Part shown: positions 60,885-64,000 of the stretch, piece by piece | Numbering within the stretch: the stretch's first letter is position 1 | Layout of the letters: each line of letters begins with the position of its first letter | From: Halarcobacter mediterraneus | Lineage (GTDB): Bacteria; Campylobacterota; Campylobacteria; Campylobacterales; Arcobacteraceae | Direction: 5' to 3' | Length of the DNA stretch: 64,000 nucleotides | Assembly: GCF_004116625.1 (NCBI RefSeq) | Contig: NZ_NXIE01000001.1 | Coordinates: 310,001-374,000 of the forward strand | Notes under the pieces: generated by a model | The model's database searches: none | The model's input: the letters and a program-made list of their open reading frames with translations, nothing else | What the model was told of the DNA's origin: nothing | Program-made: the position numbers and the translations under genes

Positions 60885-60957
60885 TTATTTCTTTAAATAC
60901 TAAATAAAATATAAACTTTGTATAATAGATTGTATTAAAAGAAGAGGAATTAAATTA

Positions 60958-61023
60958 ATGAAGATTCGCGTTTATTATGAGAATACCTCATTATTTCAAT
61001 TTTCTGTAAAACCTATATTTTAA
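60958..61023 (+). CDS. 21-codon micro-ORF
   Basis: ATG at 60958 behind a good site (AGAGGAA, 60943-60949) and a TATAAT 32 nt upstream. It encodes MKIRVYYENTSLFQFSVKPIF and stops at 61023. Too short for family recognition; it may be a leader peptide or chance. Confidence 0.3.
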   Translation: MKIRVYYENTSLFQFSVKPIF

Positions 61024-61260
61024 ATTTTTAATATCAATATAAACTAATTTTTATTTACTTCTTTTTTAATATAATAGGCACGATTTTAGGCATAGAAATA
61101 ATTTAAATTATTGTCCTTTAATTAACTATTTACTAAACCCTTATATAATATAATTATTTTATAATTCATATGATTTGGGAATAAAAAAAGAGCAAATAAT
61201 TTCTATTTAATTTTCTTTTATAAAATACTACTATTATATAAAATTAAAATCTATATTTAA

Positions 61261-61289
61261 TTTACGGATTATCGTATTTTCAGTACAAT
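61261..61289 (+). promoter_or_regulatory. dndC promoter TTTACG-N17-TACAAT, leaderless
   Basis: TTTACG (61261-61266), a 17-bp spacer and TACAAT (61284-61289) form a regular sigma-70 promoter whose start would fall at the dndC ATG (61295). TACG (61263-61266) and CGTA (61273-61276) form a small palindrome across the -35 and spacer, a possible operator. Confidence 0.5.
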
Positions 61290-61294
61290 ATGAC

Positions 61295-62752
61295 ATGAGT
61301 ACAAATGACATAACATTAGCAGAAAAAGAAGTATTAGCTGTTAAAATTCTTAAACACTATTATTTAAAAGACCCTAGACCATTTTGTGTGGCATATAGTG
61401 GTGGTAAAGATAGTAGTGTAATTGTTTATTTAACTATTAAAATGCTTCAAGAATTGGTTAATGAAAATATAGATCTTAATAAAGAAATTTTAATTCTAAA
61501 CTCAAATACTTTAGCGGAACTACCACCAGTATTAAAACATTTAGAAGAATCTTTAAAATCTATACAATATTATTCAGATCAATATAATCTACCTGTAAAA
61601 GTAAAAGAAGTAACTCCTGAACTAAAAAACACTCTAAATGTACAGCTTTTAGGGGTTGGTATGCCACCACCATCAAATCAATTAAGATGGTGTACTGATA
61701 AATTAAAAGTATTTCCTATTGATAAAGAGATTACTTCAAATTTCCCTAACGGTAAATTCATATCTGTTATTGGTACAAGAAGAGATGAAAGCTTTTCAAG
61801 AGATGCAAGAATTGAAAAGAAAACAGTAAAAGGAACAAATCTTAAATTAAATGATAGATATAAAAATGCAAGTAATTTAATGCCTATTGAAGATTGGACT
61901 ACAAAAGATGTATGGGAATATCTATTTAAACAAACAAATGAACTTTTAAATGTAGATTTTCTTTGGAAAATATATAGTGATGCAAGTGGAAAAGATACTC
62001 ATGAATGTACTTTTGTTGCTGCAGGTGGAAAGCATATAGAAGAGGGAAAAATCGGTTGTGGTGTTTCTAGGTTTGGTTGTTGGCAATGTTATATGGTAAG
62101 AGACAAAGATAAAAGTCTTGATGGTCTTATGAAAAGTGGATATGAAAATATAGATTTATATAAAAAATATAGAGATAGTTTTTGGGATGAAACTCAAAAA
62201 GGTTGGGAGTTCACAAGAGATCCCTATAGCCATAGACACCAGGGTCAAGAGTTTTATAATAAGGGAGATGAATCAAATCCTAAGTTTGGAATGACAATGC
62301 CAAAAGGTCTAACTTTAAAACTAAGAAAAAGATTTTTTAAAGAATTATTGAAATTACAGTCTCAATTAAAAGAAGAGATTATAACAAAAGATGAAATTTA
62401 TCATATTCAATTAAGATGGATTCATGAGGGTGATCTTAATTTAGAAGCCTTTCAAGAAGCGAGAAAGTATAAAATCAAATTACGATTTACCGATTTAGAG
62501 AAAGATCTTCAAAAACAAATAAAAGAAGCTAGACTATTTTACAGAAATAAATTGCTAAAAAAAGATGTAAGAAAGTATTTTTCTATTGAAACAAGAAAAA
62601 GATTTGCAGTACAATATTTTTTAAATCCAGATAAAATAGAGAAAAAATTTTTCCCTTCATATGATCAGGAAAATCATATAAAGAAAGAATGGAAAAAAGA
62701 ACAAAAGATTAATCCTAATATTACTTTCAAAAATATATTAGATTATTCGTAA
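61295..62752 (+). CDS. dndC: DNA phosphorothioation sulfurtransferase DndC
   Basis: A 485-residue member of the PAPS-reductase/PP-loop family. In Dnd systems DndC activates the DNA backbone site and, with DndA/IscS-supplied sulfur, takes part in replacing a non-bridging oxygen by sulfur. The PP-loop SGGKDSS lies at residues 35-41. Cluster cysteines are seen in LRWCTDK (about 133) and CGVSRFGCWQC (about 255, 262, 265), the four-cysteine set for [4Fe-4S]. VIGTRRDESFSRDARIEKK and MPIEDWTTKDVWEYL follow the family. DndB, DndD and DndE are not in the window; the gene stands alone on the plus strand and overlaps the convergent gene by 10 bp. Confidence 0.88.
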   Translation: MSTNDITLAEKEVLAVKILKHYYLKDPRPFCVAYSGGKDSSVIVYLTIKMLQELVNENIDLNKEILILNSNTLAELPPVLKHLEESLKSIQYYSDQYNLPVKVKEVTPELKNTLNVQLLGVGMPPPSNQLRWCTDKLKVFPIDKEITSNFPNGKFISVIGTRRDESFSRDARIEKKTVKGTNLKLNDRYKNASNLMPIEDWTTKDVWEYLFKQTNELLNVDFLWKIYSDASGKDTHECTFVAAGGKHIEEGKIGCGVSRFGCWQCYMVRDKDKSLDGLMKSGYENIDLYKKYRDSFWDETQKGWEFTRDPYSHRHQGQEFYNKGDESNPKFGMTMPKGLTLKLRKRFFKELLKLQSQLKEEIITKDEIYHIQLRWIHEGDLNLEAFQEARKYKIKLRFTDLEKDLQKQIKEARLFYRNKLLKKDVRKYFSIETRKRFAVQYFLNPDKIEKKFFPSYDQENHIKKEWKKEQKINPNITFKNILDYS

Positions 62753-63726
62753 TGAAAATTTGTTTCTAATATTTTATCTATTATTTGAAAAGAATCAACT
62801 ACATTTTCTTCTTTTATACTTTCGAGAATTCTACTTCTATCAAAAATAATACTCTCTGAACTTTCTATATCATCTAGAAATTCAAATTCATCTTTAAAAT
62901 TACTAAATTCAAAGGGTATGGCAAATCCAAAATTCAGAATAGTTTTATTAACATCTAAAAATGTACAAATTTTTCTATTTTCTGCTAATTTGGTTTTCCA
63001 ATTAGCTCCACTTGCACATTGTACAAGCATTATAAACATATTTGGTATTTTGTCTTTAAATGGTGACCAGACAGCTAAATCTAAACCTCTATCTTTTGTT
63101 GAATATGTTGAAATATGTCTTTCAATTACGTCTGTTCTTGGTTTGACATTTAATTCACTTGCTAAACTAATAATTTTGTCTTTTGTTTTATTTTCATCAT
63201 AATCTTCATTATTACCAAACTCTTTAACTATTCCTATTCCTCCAAATTTATTTTGAAAAGAATAATATGAAATTTTTTCAAAATCATTTGTTAGATCTTT
63301 TTGAAATTCTTTAAATCTTTTTAAATTAGATGAACATAATAGAACAATATAAATTTTTTGTTTATTTGTTAAAGAAGGTTTTAACTTAATTGAATGATAG
63401 TCATTTTCTATTATAAAAGGATAGTCTTCTTCAAAAAGATCTCTTCTTTCTTTTAGTAGTGCAAAAAAATAATCAGTTTTAGATTCTGCATCATCTCTTT
63501 CTTCTACAATCTCCTCTTCTCCAAATTCTGATGAAGTATCAACTTGAATATTTAGTATTCTTGCAACATCACTTGAAGTTAGCTCTGTATTATAAATGAA
63601 AGAATAAAGTTCAATTTGATCTAATTTATGATTATAAATTAAATTTGTGCCACTTGCTGTAATTGCAAGATAATCTTGCATATTCCTTGTATATTCTATA
63701 AATTTACTATGAAAGTGTGAACTCAT
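62743..63726 (-). CDS. unrecognised 327-residue protein, possible PD-(D/E)XK nuclease
   Basis: No confident family. The C-terminal half contains DRGLDLAVWSPFKDKIPNMFIMLVQCASGANWKTKL (Asp near 214, the QCASGANW strand near 233), which looks like the D-x(n)-QxxxG..W core seen in nuclease-like proteins of defence islands, though the canonical lysine is not obvious. The acidic segment GEEEIVEERDDAESK near 68-82 is unstructured. It overlaps the upstream partial gene by 20 nt, so both are one operon, and is convergent with dndC (10-bp overlap). The nuclease idea is an inference from motif shape and context. Confidence 0.5.
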   Translation of the reverse strand: MSSHFHSKFIEYTRNMQDYLAITASGTNLIYNHKLDQIELYSFIYNTELTSSDVARILNIQVDTSSEFGEEEIVEERDDAESKTDYFFALLKERRDLFEEDYPFIIENDYHSIKLKPSLTNKQKIYIVLLCSSNLKRFKEFQKDLTNDFEKISYYSFQNKFGGIGIVKEFGNNEDYDENKTKDKIISLASELNVKPRTDVIERHISTYSTKDRGLDLAVWSPFKDKIPNMFIMLVQCASGANWKTKLAENRKICTFLDVNKTILNFGFAIPFEFSNFKDEFEFLDDIESSESIIFDRSRILESIKEENVVDSFQIIDKILETNFHYE

Positions 63727-64000
63727 TGTCTTCTTCTTGTTTTTTAGAGTTATTAATTCTATTTAAGTTTTTACAAATTGATAAGATTGTAGAAAGATTA
63801 TTTTCTAACTCAAAGTTAAACTCTTTTATACTATGTAATGGTTTCTCTGAATTTTCTAAATTTGAAATTGCTTTTTTAATTAATGAATCAAATAGTACAT
63901 CATTATCTTGTGCAAATACTAATGCTTCATCTAAAGTCTTTTCTTTTAATATAAATTCATCTTTTGAAGATTGACAAGCTAGTACTTTATCTAATTTACC
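63707..64000 (-). CDS. C-terminal part of a gene cut by the window edge
   Basis: The last 97 codons of a protein reading GKLDKVLACQSSKDEFILKE at the window edge and ending NEFTLS at the TAG (63707-63709). The visible part is helical and charged with no motif. It overlaps the start of the 327-residue gene by 20 nt and so forms an operon with it. It may belong to an ATPase or other large protein of the same defence-like cluster, which cannot be told from this part. Confidence 0.6.
   Translation of the reverse strand, partial: GKLDKVLACQSSKDEFILKEKTLDEALVFAQDNDVLFDSLIKKAISNLENSEKPLHSIKEFNFELENNLSTILSICKNLNRINNSKKQEEDNEFTLS

Follow-up and report, generated by a model that had tools for sequence, protein, structure and literature searches.

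What does a gene for a DndC-like enzyme do when no dndD or dndE accompanies it? The question is raised by the right-hand end of a 64,000-nt stretch of the Halarcobacter mediterraneus genome (contig NZ_NXIE01000001.1, positions 310,001 to 374,000; hereafter, the window), where a dndC-like gene (61295..62752, + strand; 485 aa; its product is called solo DndC here) faces two genes on the opposite strand. The first, R (62743..63726, − strand; 327 aa), encodes a protein predicted to consist of a winged helix and a PD-(D/E)XK nuclease and overlaps the 3′ end of dndC by 10 bp (62743..62752). The second encodes a ParB-like protein; its 3′ part (63707..64000, − strand) lies in the window, and the whole gene (378 aa; L002:7708-8844, − strand) reaches contig position 64843. 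The two overlap by 20 bp and form a codirectional operon. A preliminary description of the window had reported these open reading frames (ORFs), their strands and the 10-bp convergent overlap, all of which was borne out, and had proposed a variant, sulfur-linked defence locus. On the evidence of exchange between modification genes, we read the locus as a restriction–modification (RM)-like defence module on an inovirus prophage, with a DndC-like modification arm. Judged from sequence comparisons, solo DndC would be a one-gene sulfur-modification arm of RM-like systems, exchangeable with a methyltransferase or with dndCDE (probability, ∼0.6), and R would be the restriction effector.

The first of two exchange series behind this reading concerns the ParB+R pair. 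The ParB-like protein matches the PADLOC model PD-Lambda-5_A over residues 5-158 of 378 (1.2e-22) and phrog_3694 over residues 6-375 (1.6e-74). With tblastn, the pair was found in P2-like phages (Wphi, 12474-type, and D14A), where a convergent DNA cytosine methyltransferase gene takes the position of dndC. Searching viral contigs directly with R returned nothing; the search via an alignment of the ParB-like protein succeeded and yielded at least 80 loci, with 60 genes matching the R profile and 58 pairs with a readable next gene (22 of the 80 loci, having either no R relative beside ParB or no readable next gene, were left out). Among the matches listed, the next gene encodes a convergent C5 methyltransferase, assigned by motif, at a distance of −4 to +45 bp in 52 of the 58 viral pairs (35 of 40 after dereplication). 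In the other six, the DNA methyltransferase gene is separated by an inserted element, lies one gene further along, has the same orientation as the pair, or is placed upstream, so that every one of the 58 pairs listed has such a gene within three genes and, with it, the RM-like feature of a (predicted) nuclease gene, R, beside a modification gene. Pfam confirmed all 35 methyltransferases that were examined, 29 from the convergent set and the rest from the six exceptions; 34 are C5 enzymes and one is of the D12 adenine type. Bacterial pairs extend the series: one is convergent with canonical dndCDE (L029), one stands with a D12-type methyltransferase (L237), and two, that of the window and L022, stand with solo dndC. 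Because methyltransferase, dndCDE, and solo dndC exchange beside it, the ParB+R pair appears to need some modification gene, but no particular chemistry.

Two elements of the preliminary description have to be recast in this light. Convergence had been regarded as an oddity for a Dnd locus; it is in fact the usual geometry of ParB+R and its modification gene. The operon had been called unrecognised; the pair belongs to a widespread module that is elsewhere combined with a methyltransferase. The ParB+R+methyltransferase unit also occurs in Escherichia coli W and relatives (L004); of 5426 complete E. coli genomes, 103 contain it at a coverage of 80% or more. The R protein of this unit has no PADLOC match at E ≤ 0.001.

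The second exchange series concerns what solo DndC sits beside. DndC was searched for in the bacterial family (104 genomes), in a sample of the phylum (397 genomes), and in GTDB contigs, these scans consisting of a few peptide patterns and genome samples. Besides fragments, 11 further loci were recovered whose DndC is 57-79% identical to that of the window, and a defence module adjoins solo DndC in all 12. It is ParB+R in two loci (the window and L022), a GmrSD_N protein (HEC-06-like) with a 320-aa gene, within an inovirus, in one (L023), and Menshen NsnABC in five (L024, L047, L048, L051, and L161), where the NsnA and NsnC models match in 5/5 and NsnB was assigned by model in the three scanned and by similarity in two. 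The remaining four carry RADAR-like RdrAB (L025:10092-14970, L026:4161-9264, L049:11427-16350, and L050:11442-16245), with RdrA and RdrB models matching in 4/4 at partial coverage. At least four partner changes have to be placed on the drawn DndC tree. The two series agree, with methyltransferase, dndCDE, or solo DndC in the modification slot and several modules in the effector slot, and it is for this reason that solo DndC is taken for the modification arm.

The family's six dndCDE loci show comparable partners in three cases, namely, ParB+R (L029), GmrSD with a HATPase-domain gene (L030), and a RADAR-like module (L034); other genes lie beside dndCDE in L031 and L032, and L033 is cut by a contig end. 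The RADAR-like subtype with a short RdrB (751-807 aa) was met five times, next to solo dndC in all cases but L034:1206-6359, where dndCDE adjoins it. RADAR loci with a longer RdrB (873-910 aa) had no DndC nearby in 5/5 cases, and the link to DndC is therefore a property of the type with an RdrB of 751-773 aa, not of RADAR in general. A Menshen module (L239:1948-7712) adjoins a PD-lambda-5 ParB and methyltransferase pair; together with the five loci that contain solo dndC, this suggests that a DNA-modification gene may be a frequent companion of Menshen. As to the partners themselves, a GmrSD_N domain is present in all five NsnA proteins, and 8 of the 12 solo loci encode a partner with a ParB-like or GmrSD_N domain (the ParB relative of L022 being counted by its 88% identity). 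A published survey gives GmrSD a ParB domain (PMC12839542), and the ParB-like/GmrSD_N protein may be the common sensor, or reader, of the mark. The GmrSD_N domain is common to the NsnA proteins, including that of L239, and to the partner in L023.

That the solo genes belong together is evident from a 52-row DndC tree, in which the 12 solo loci form a single group with 100/100 support. In the other large clade, DndD is adjacent in 35 of 36 rows; in the solo loci, DndD was found within six genes in 0/12. The long-branch warning given with the tree bears on the attachment point of the solo clade, not on its unity. All named hosts of the clade are Campylobacterota, Aliarcobacter vitoriensis and Sulfurospirillum arcachonense among them. 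The tree was calculated without L035 (a weak partial match) and L162 (a fragment only of a solo-type gene), and a further 11 weak or partial DndC matches stayed unused (G376, G400, G114, G329, G314, G255, G359, G296, G402, G266, and the second in G384); G265, G299, and G334 were taken as L047, L048, and L049 by virtue of equal contig positions, and L045 and L046 repeat L022 and L024. A third group of DndC proteins, 581-628 aa long, comprises L027, L028, L163, and L194; the profiles used detected no DndD or DndE there, and L028 is, by position, a plasmid record.

The preliminary description had conceded that an ordinary dndBCDE set just outside the window would speak against its proposal, and such a set was looked for. 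Past the window edge, no dndB, dndD, or dndE was seen in ORFs of at least 70 aa to 12 kb and of at least 150 aa to 32 kb, inspection being by eye, with model scans on some of these ORFs, and being the only search made for dndB. In the whole source genome (2.83 Mb, 29 contigs), the DndD and DndE models had no match. The gene had been called solitary, and it is so on this evidence. Across genomes, the DndE model PF08870, which replaced TIGR03184 because the latter missed positive controls, matched in 4/4 genomes with dndCDE and in 0/10 genomes with solo dndC. In each of the four dndCDE genomes, the DndD model TIGR03185 matched over the span of the gene, split into two pieces in G022, and always scored below the curated cut-off. 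Of the ten solo genomes, six gave nothing; in the other four, matches were confined to the N-terminal part, covered no more than 137 positions, and lay in open frames of 229-880 aa. DndE lies within six genes in 0/12 solo loci once one profile hit is set aside: the match six genes from dndC in L024 proved to be an ABC-type ATPase of 216 aa, the similarity being to its P-loop. DUF4007 (SspB) was over the cut-off in 0/11 solo genomes, among which there is no positive control (one 15-bit match contains a stop). A NifS-type cysteine desulfurase, by contrast, was matched in all 11 solo genomes, over the cut-off in nine.

The protein itself is clearly of the DndC family. It matches PADLOC DndC at 1.1e-78 and Pfam PAPS_reduct at 8.3e-13, and in PADLOC bit scores the DndC models reach 263, compared with 33.5 for SspD and 52 for BrxP. 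The NCBIfam DndC equivalog TIGR03183, however, has a cut-off of 290.4 bits, and the window protein reaches 213.4; the five solo-clade proteins that were scored all fail (199-229 bits), whereas 3/3 dndCDE-linked controls pass (352-374 bits). For this reason, the window protein is, by sequence, DndC-like rather than DndC proper. The PP-loop motif SGGKDS (residues 35-40) is present in 12/12 solo proteins and in 33/35 dndCDE-linked ORFs, and Cys133, 238, 255, 262, and 265 are common to both clades, so that the PP-loop and cysteines noticed in the preliminary description were real and are conserved; the cysteines would hold the cluster. Around positions 243-246, 303-313, and 334 and at the end, the solo proteins have residues or insertions that are absent from the dndCDE-linked clade. 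Searching by sequence among solved structures returned no relative at E ≤ 0.01. By fold, residues 1-293 (the tail beyond was barely covered in this comparison) are of the PP-loop type, PAPS/APS reductases being among the closest solved folds, with a best Z of 15.6. The Foldseek matches also include the Fe-S tRNA thiolases TtuA and NcsA, enzymes that add sulfur to a base, and because of these, thiolation of a base has to be considered a real alternative to phosphorothioation.

R matches phrog_3984 (4.6e-29) and no Pfam family at E ≤ 1. Residues D212, D216, Q236, C237, K246, D296, and R297 are invariant in 37/37 relatives. In the AlphaFold2 model (pLDDT 78.7, pTM 0.82), the N-terminal part, residues 27-117, is winged-helix-like (F-112, Z 7.1), and residues ∼95-315 align with PD-(D/E)XK proteins, namely, MspJI (Z 7.6), N.BspD6I (7.5), EcoT38I (7.2), SgrAI (7.1), FokI (7.0), and Shedu (6.8). 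Since the Z values stay below 8 and the best Foldseek E is 2e-3, the call draws on fold, motif, and context together, and by these R is predicted to be a PD-(D/E)XK nuclease, which would cleave DNA. The nuclease-like character that the preliminary description had suspected for this protein agrees with this prediction, and the second gene of the operon, left incomplete by the window edge, is completed outside it as the ParB-like gene.

The three genes are cargo at the left end of an inovirus prophage of ∼12.7 kb. Its left attachment repeat (61073..61093, + strand) consists of 21 nt identical to L002:17795-17815, 12,721 bp away, and the right copy lies within the integrase gene, at its 3′ end; from this repeat pair, we conclude that the inovirus is integrated. 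Beyond the ParB-like gene follow a CI-type repressor, an 83-aa coat-like ORF, a Zot/pI ATPase, a GPA-type rolling-circle initiator, a tyrosine integrase, and ybgC. The Pfam matches are Zot (4e-17), Phage_GPA (7.8e-21), and Phage_integrase (1.9e-24); for the coat-like ORF, the match is weak and to an unnamed PHROG (2.7e-5). The features of an inovirus prophage, that is, Zot/pI ATPase, rolling-circle initiator, coat-like gene, integrase, and flanking repeats, are all present, and further small ORFs read by their position as SSB-, pIII-, pVI-, and excisionase-like. No methyltransferase was recognised among the prophage ORFs scanned, some small ones lying outside the scan, and no Rfam family matched L002. 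The trio recurs in another genome, G063 (L022), with 79-88% protein identity and an identical 10-bp overlap, adjoining ybgC and an 80-aa remnant of the window prophage's integrase; the other phage genes are gone.

Some further features of these elements may be recorded. Two tandem, related genes at L002:11738-13560, read as pIII-like, have in common a 267-nt repeat that is 78% identical. To the left of the prophage, 30 nt at 60957-60986 of the window are 77% identical to the start of ybgC, as if they were the remnant of an earlier integration site. L023 and L031, from the same bacterial family, are inovirus-like elements with sulfur-modification cargo before SSB-like and coat-like genes, the cargo being solo dndC and the GmrSD_N gene in the former and dndCDE with two further genes in the latter. 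Upstream of the window's dndC, a −10-like box, TACAAT (61284..61289, + strand), ends 5 nt before the ATG and follows TTTACG (61261-61266, + strand) after a spacer of 17 nt. TACAAT stands at the same distance from the dndC ATG in 4 of the 11 start regions compared (the window, L022, L023, and L024), but promoter-like sites across the whole region number 25, as against 23.0 (standard deviation, 5.1) in shuffles, which is chance level, so that the argument for a leaderless transcript is the recurrence of TACAAT. The leaderless start given in the preliminary description is accordingly plausible from the start regions, its promoter-like surroundings adding nothing to it.

How might the system work? 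Solo DndC would obtain its sulfur from a NifS-type cysteine desulfurase with a housekeeping role, use ATP, by way of the PP-loop and a [4Fe-4S] site, to activate its target, and, without DndD or DndE, put a sulfur mark on resident DNA at specific sites. The ParB-like protein may act as a nucleotide-dependent DNA sensor or clamp; together with R, it would attack DNA that lacks the mark, and marked DNA would be spared. Several findings weigh against this scheme. Neither RADAR nor Menshen is a restriction system of the classical kind, and DndC beside them might have a role other than self-marking; moreover, the RADAR matches at the solo loci are partial. According to a 2025 review (PMC12707154), phosphorothioation has three core activities, the PAPS-reductase-like enzyme DndC/SspD being joined by an ATPase and by a protein that recognises DNA. 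Solo loci are codirectional in six cases and convergent in the other six, and as few partner changes as on the tree were needed in 36 of 2000 label shuffles, so that the partners are partly inherited. The structural matches of R lie in a range that the comparison tool calls common. Finally, the clade is known only from Campylobacterota, within the peptide patterns and genome samples scanned.

Other explanations have to be judged against the same evidence. A bolder form of the proposal, which we consider possible rather than probable, makes solo DndC a self-sufficient single-protein DNA sulfur modifier, possibly base-thiolating like TtuA/NcsA, and a plug-in self-mark for several unrelated effectors, including RADAR-like modules and Menshen. 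The same structural resemblance to tRNA thiolases, the same partners that are not restriction enzymes, and the score below the equivalog cut-off can also be turned into an argument that the enzyme does not modify DNA at all, its thiolation substrates being nucleotides or tRNA, or that it acts on its own as an effector or regulator and has been swept up in defence cargo. That is unlikely, given that, next to one and the same ParB+R pair, solo DndC is found where other loci have a methyltransferase or dndCDE and that its best-scoring PADLOC models are those of DndC. Solo DndC could also work with undetected DndD/DndE-like partners elsewhere, or with another unlinked ATPase, to which the short N-terminal DndD matches in 4/10 solo genomes might point. 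With the DndE model positive in all controls and in none of the ten solo genomes, we hold this to be quite unlikely; the lack of DUF4007/SspB over the cut-off argues in the same direction, if with the reservation about its controls, and an sspC-type ATPase was outside the search.

A type IV-like arrangement, in which DNA modified with sulfur or methyl groups is the target of ParB+R and DndC provokes or tunes the response or has some other role, would fit two observations. The structural matches of R include MspJI, which acts on modified DNA, and AspBHI, whose entry title states action on modified DNA; and the GmrSD_N partner in L023 resembles SspE, a protein that senses phosphorothioate. The methyltransferase that accompanies ParB+R in all 58 viral cases listed would, however, make such a unit toxic to its own host, and we regard this arrangement as very unlikely. 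Least credible, and in our view highly improbable, is that the gene is a decayed dnd remnant or functionless, unrelated prophage cargo. Decay does occur, as the fragment in L162 and the 80-aa integrase piece that remains of the prophage in L022 attest, but all 12 loci keep the PP-loop motif in frames of 485-502 aa, and L022 has retained its three cargo genes at the identity given above despite the loss of the phage genes. Our preferred reading remains solo DndC as an exchangeable modification arm.

If this is correct, the one-gene form would be new, as published accounts treat the ATPase and the DNA-recognising partner as required. One comparative study calls the DndD/CxC-DndE pair obligate and blames most absences on poor assemblies, and it reports DndDE-type cores with cytosine methylases, which is the reverse exchange (Rakesh et al, 2024, PMC10853773). 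Here, a supported clade lacks both DndD and DndE, single-contig genomes included (G015, G054, and G246, the last checked in the neighbourhood only). Should solo DndC modify DNA, sulfur modification becomes a one-enzyme problem, and the series of methyltransferase, dndCDE, and solo DndC beside ParB+R would be a direct test of the protection that each mark confers. The question also arises whether the RADAR-like and Menshen loci of Campylobacterota use a DNA mark to distinguish self from non-self. Our literature search, which covered neither subscription papers nor preprints, gave no link of a lone DndC to ParB+R, GmrSD, Menshen, or RADAR modules, and nothing linking RADAR or Menshen to DNA sulfur modification. 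That filamentous prophages can carry defence genes is known from KKP in Pf phages (PMC11341870), and phosphorothioation can activate a filamentous phage via changed repressor binding (PMC8569181), on which account a regulatory side effect on the window prophage is conceivable.

Compared with known systems, what survives of the preliminary proposal is the solitary DndC, the nuclease-like partner, and the idea of a variant; the frame has changed to cargo of a filamentous prophage. With Dnd (DndCDE, with DndA/IscS), the locus has in common a PP-loop enzyme of the DndC family, the cysteines of that enzyme, and the presence of a NifS-type donor; it differs in having no recognised DndD or DndE, in its separate clade, in scoring below the TIGR03183 cut-off, and in the solo-specific insertions and tail. 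In SspABCD-SspE and type 4 BREX, modification for defence likewise falls to a PAPS-reductase-like enzyme (PMC12839542), but the SspD and BrxP models score far below DndC here, and DUF4007 stayed below the cut-off in the 11 solo genomes. PD-lambda-5, described as a compacted prophage RM and abortive infection (Abi) system and tested in a host with the mrr region deleted (Vassallo et al, 2022, PMC9519451), shares through its A protein the ParB-like N-terminal part (hhalign, 99.8%, E 5e-29). Its A, though, is one protein (the PADLOC profiles mostly span 428-592 positions), of which the window protein matches with residues 5-158 of 378 only, and the partner of A is a methyltransferase (protein B) instead of a DndC-like enzyme. 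The idea that A is a fusion of ParB and R was tried and dropped, R giving no match to the remainder of A-type proteins (hhalign, E 0.59). Strictly classed, the locus is neither a Dnd system, two of whose defining features it lacks, nor PD-lambda-5. The gp98-gp96-mth unit of Wphi, found in P2-like phages and in E. coli W, resembles it in that the genes for ParB and R are read in one direction and overlap or directly adjoin each other, while the modification gene converges on them, and differs in that modification is by a C5 methyltransferase, where the window carries solo DndC.

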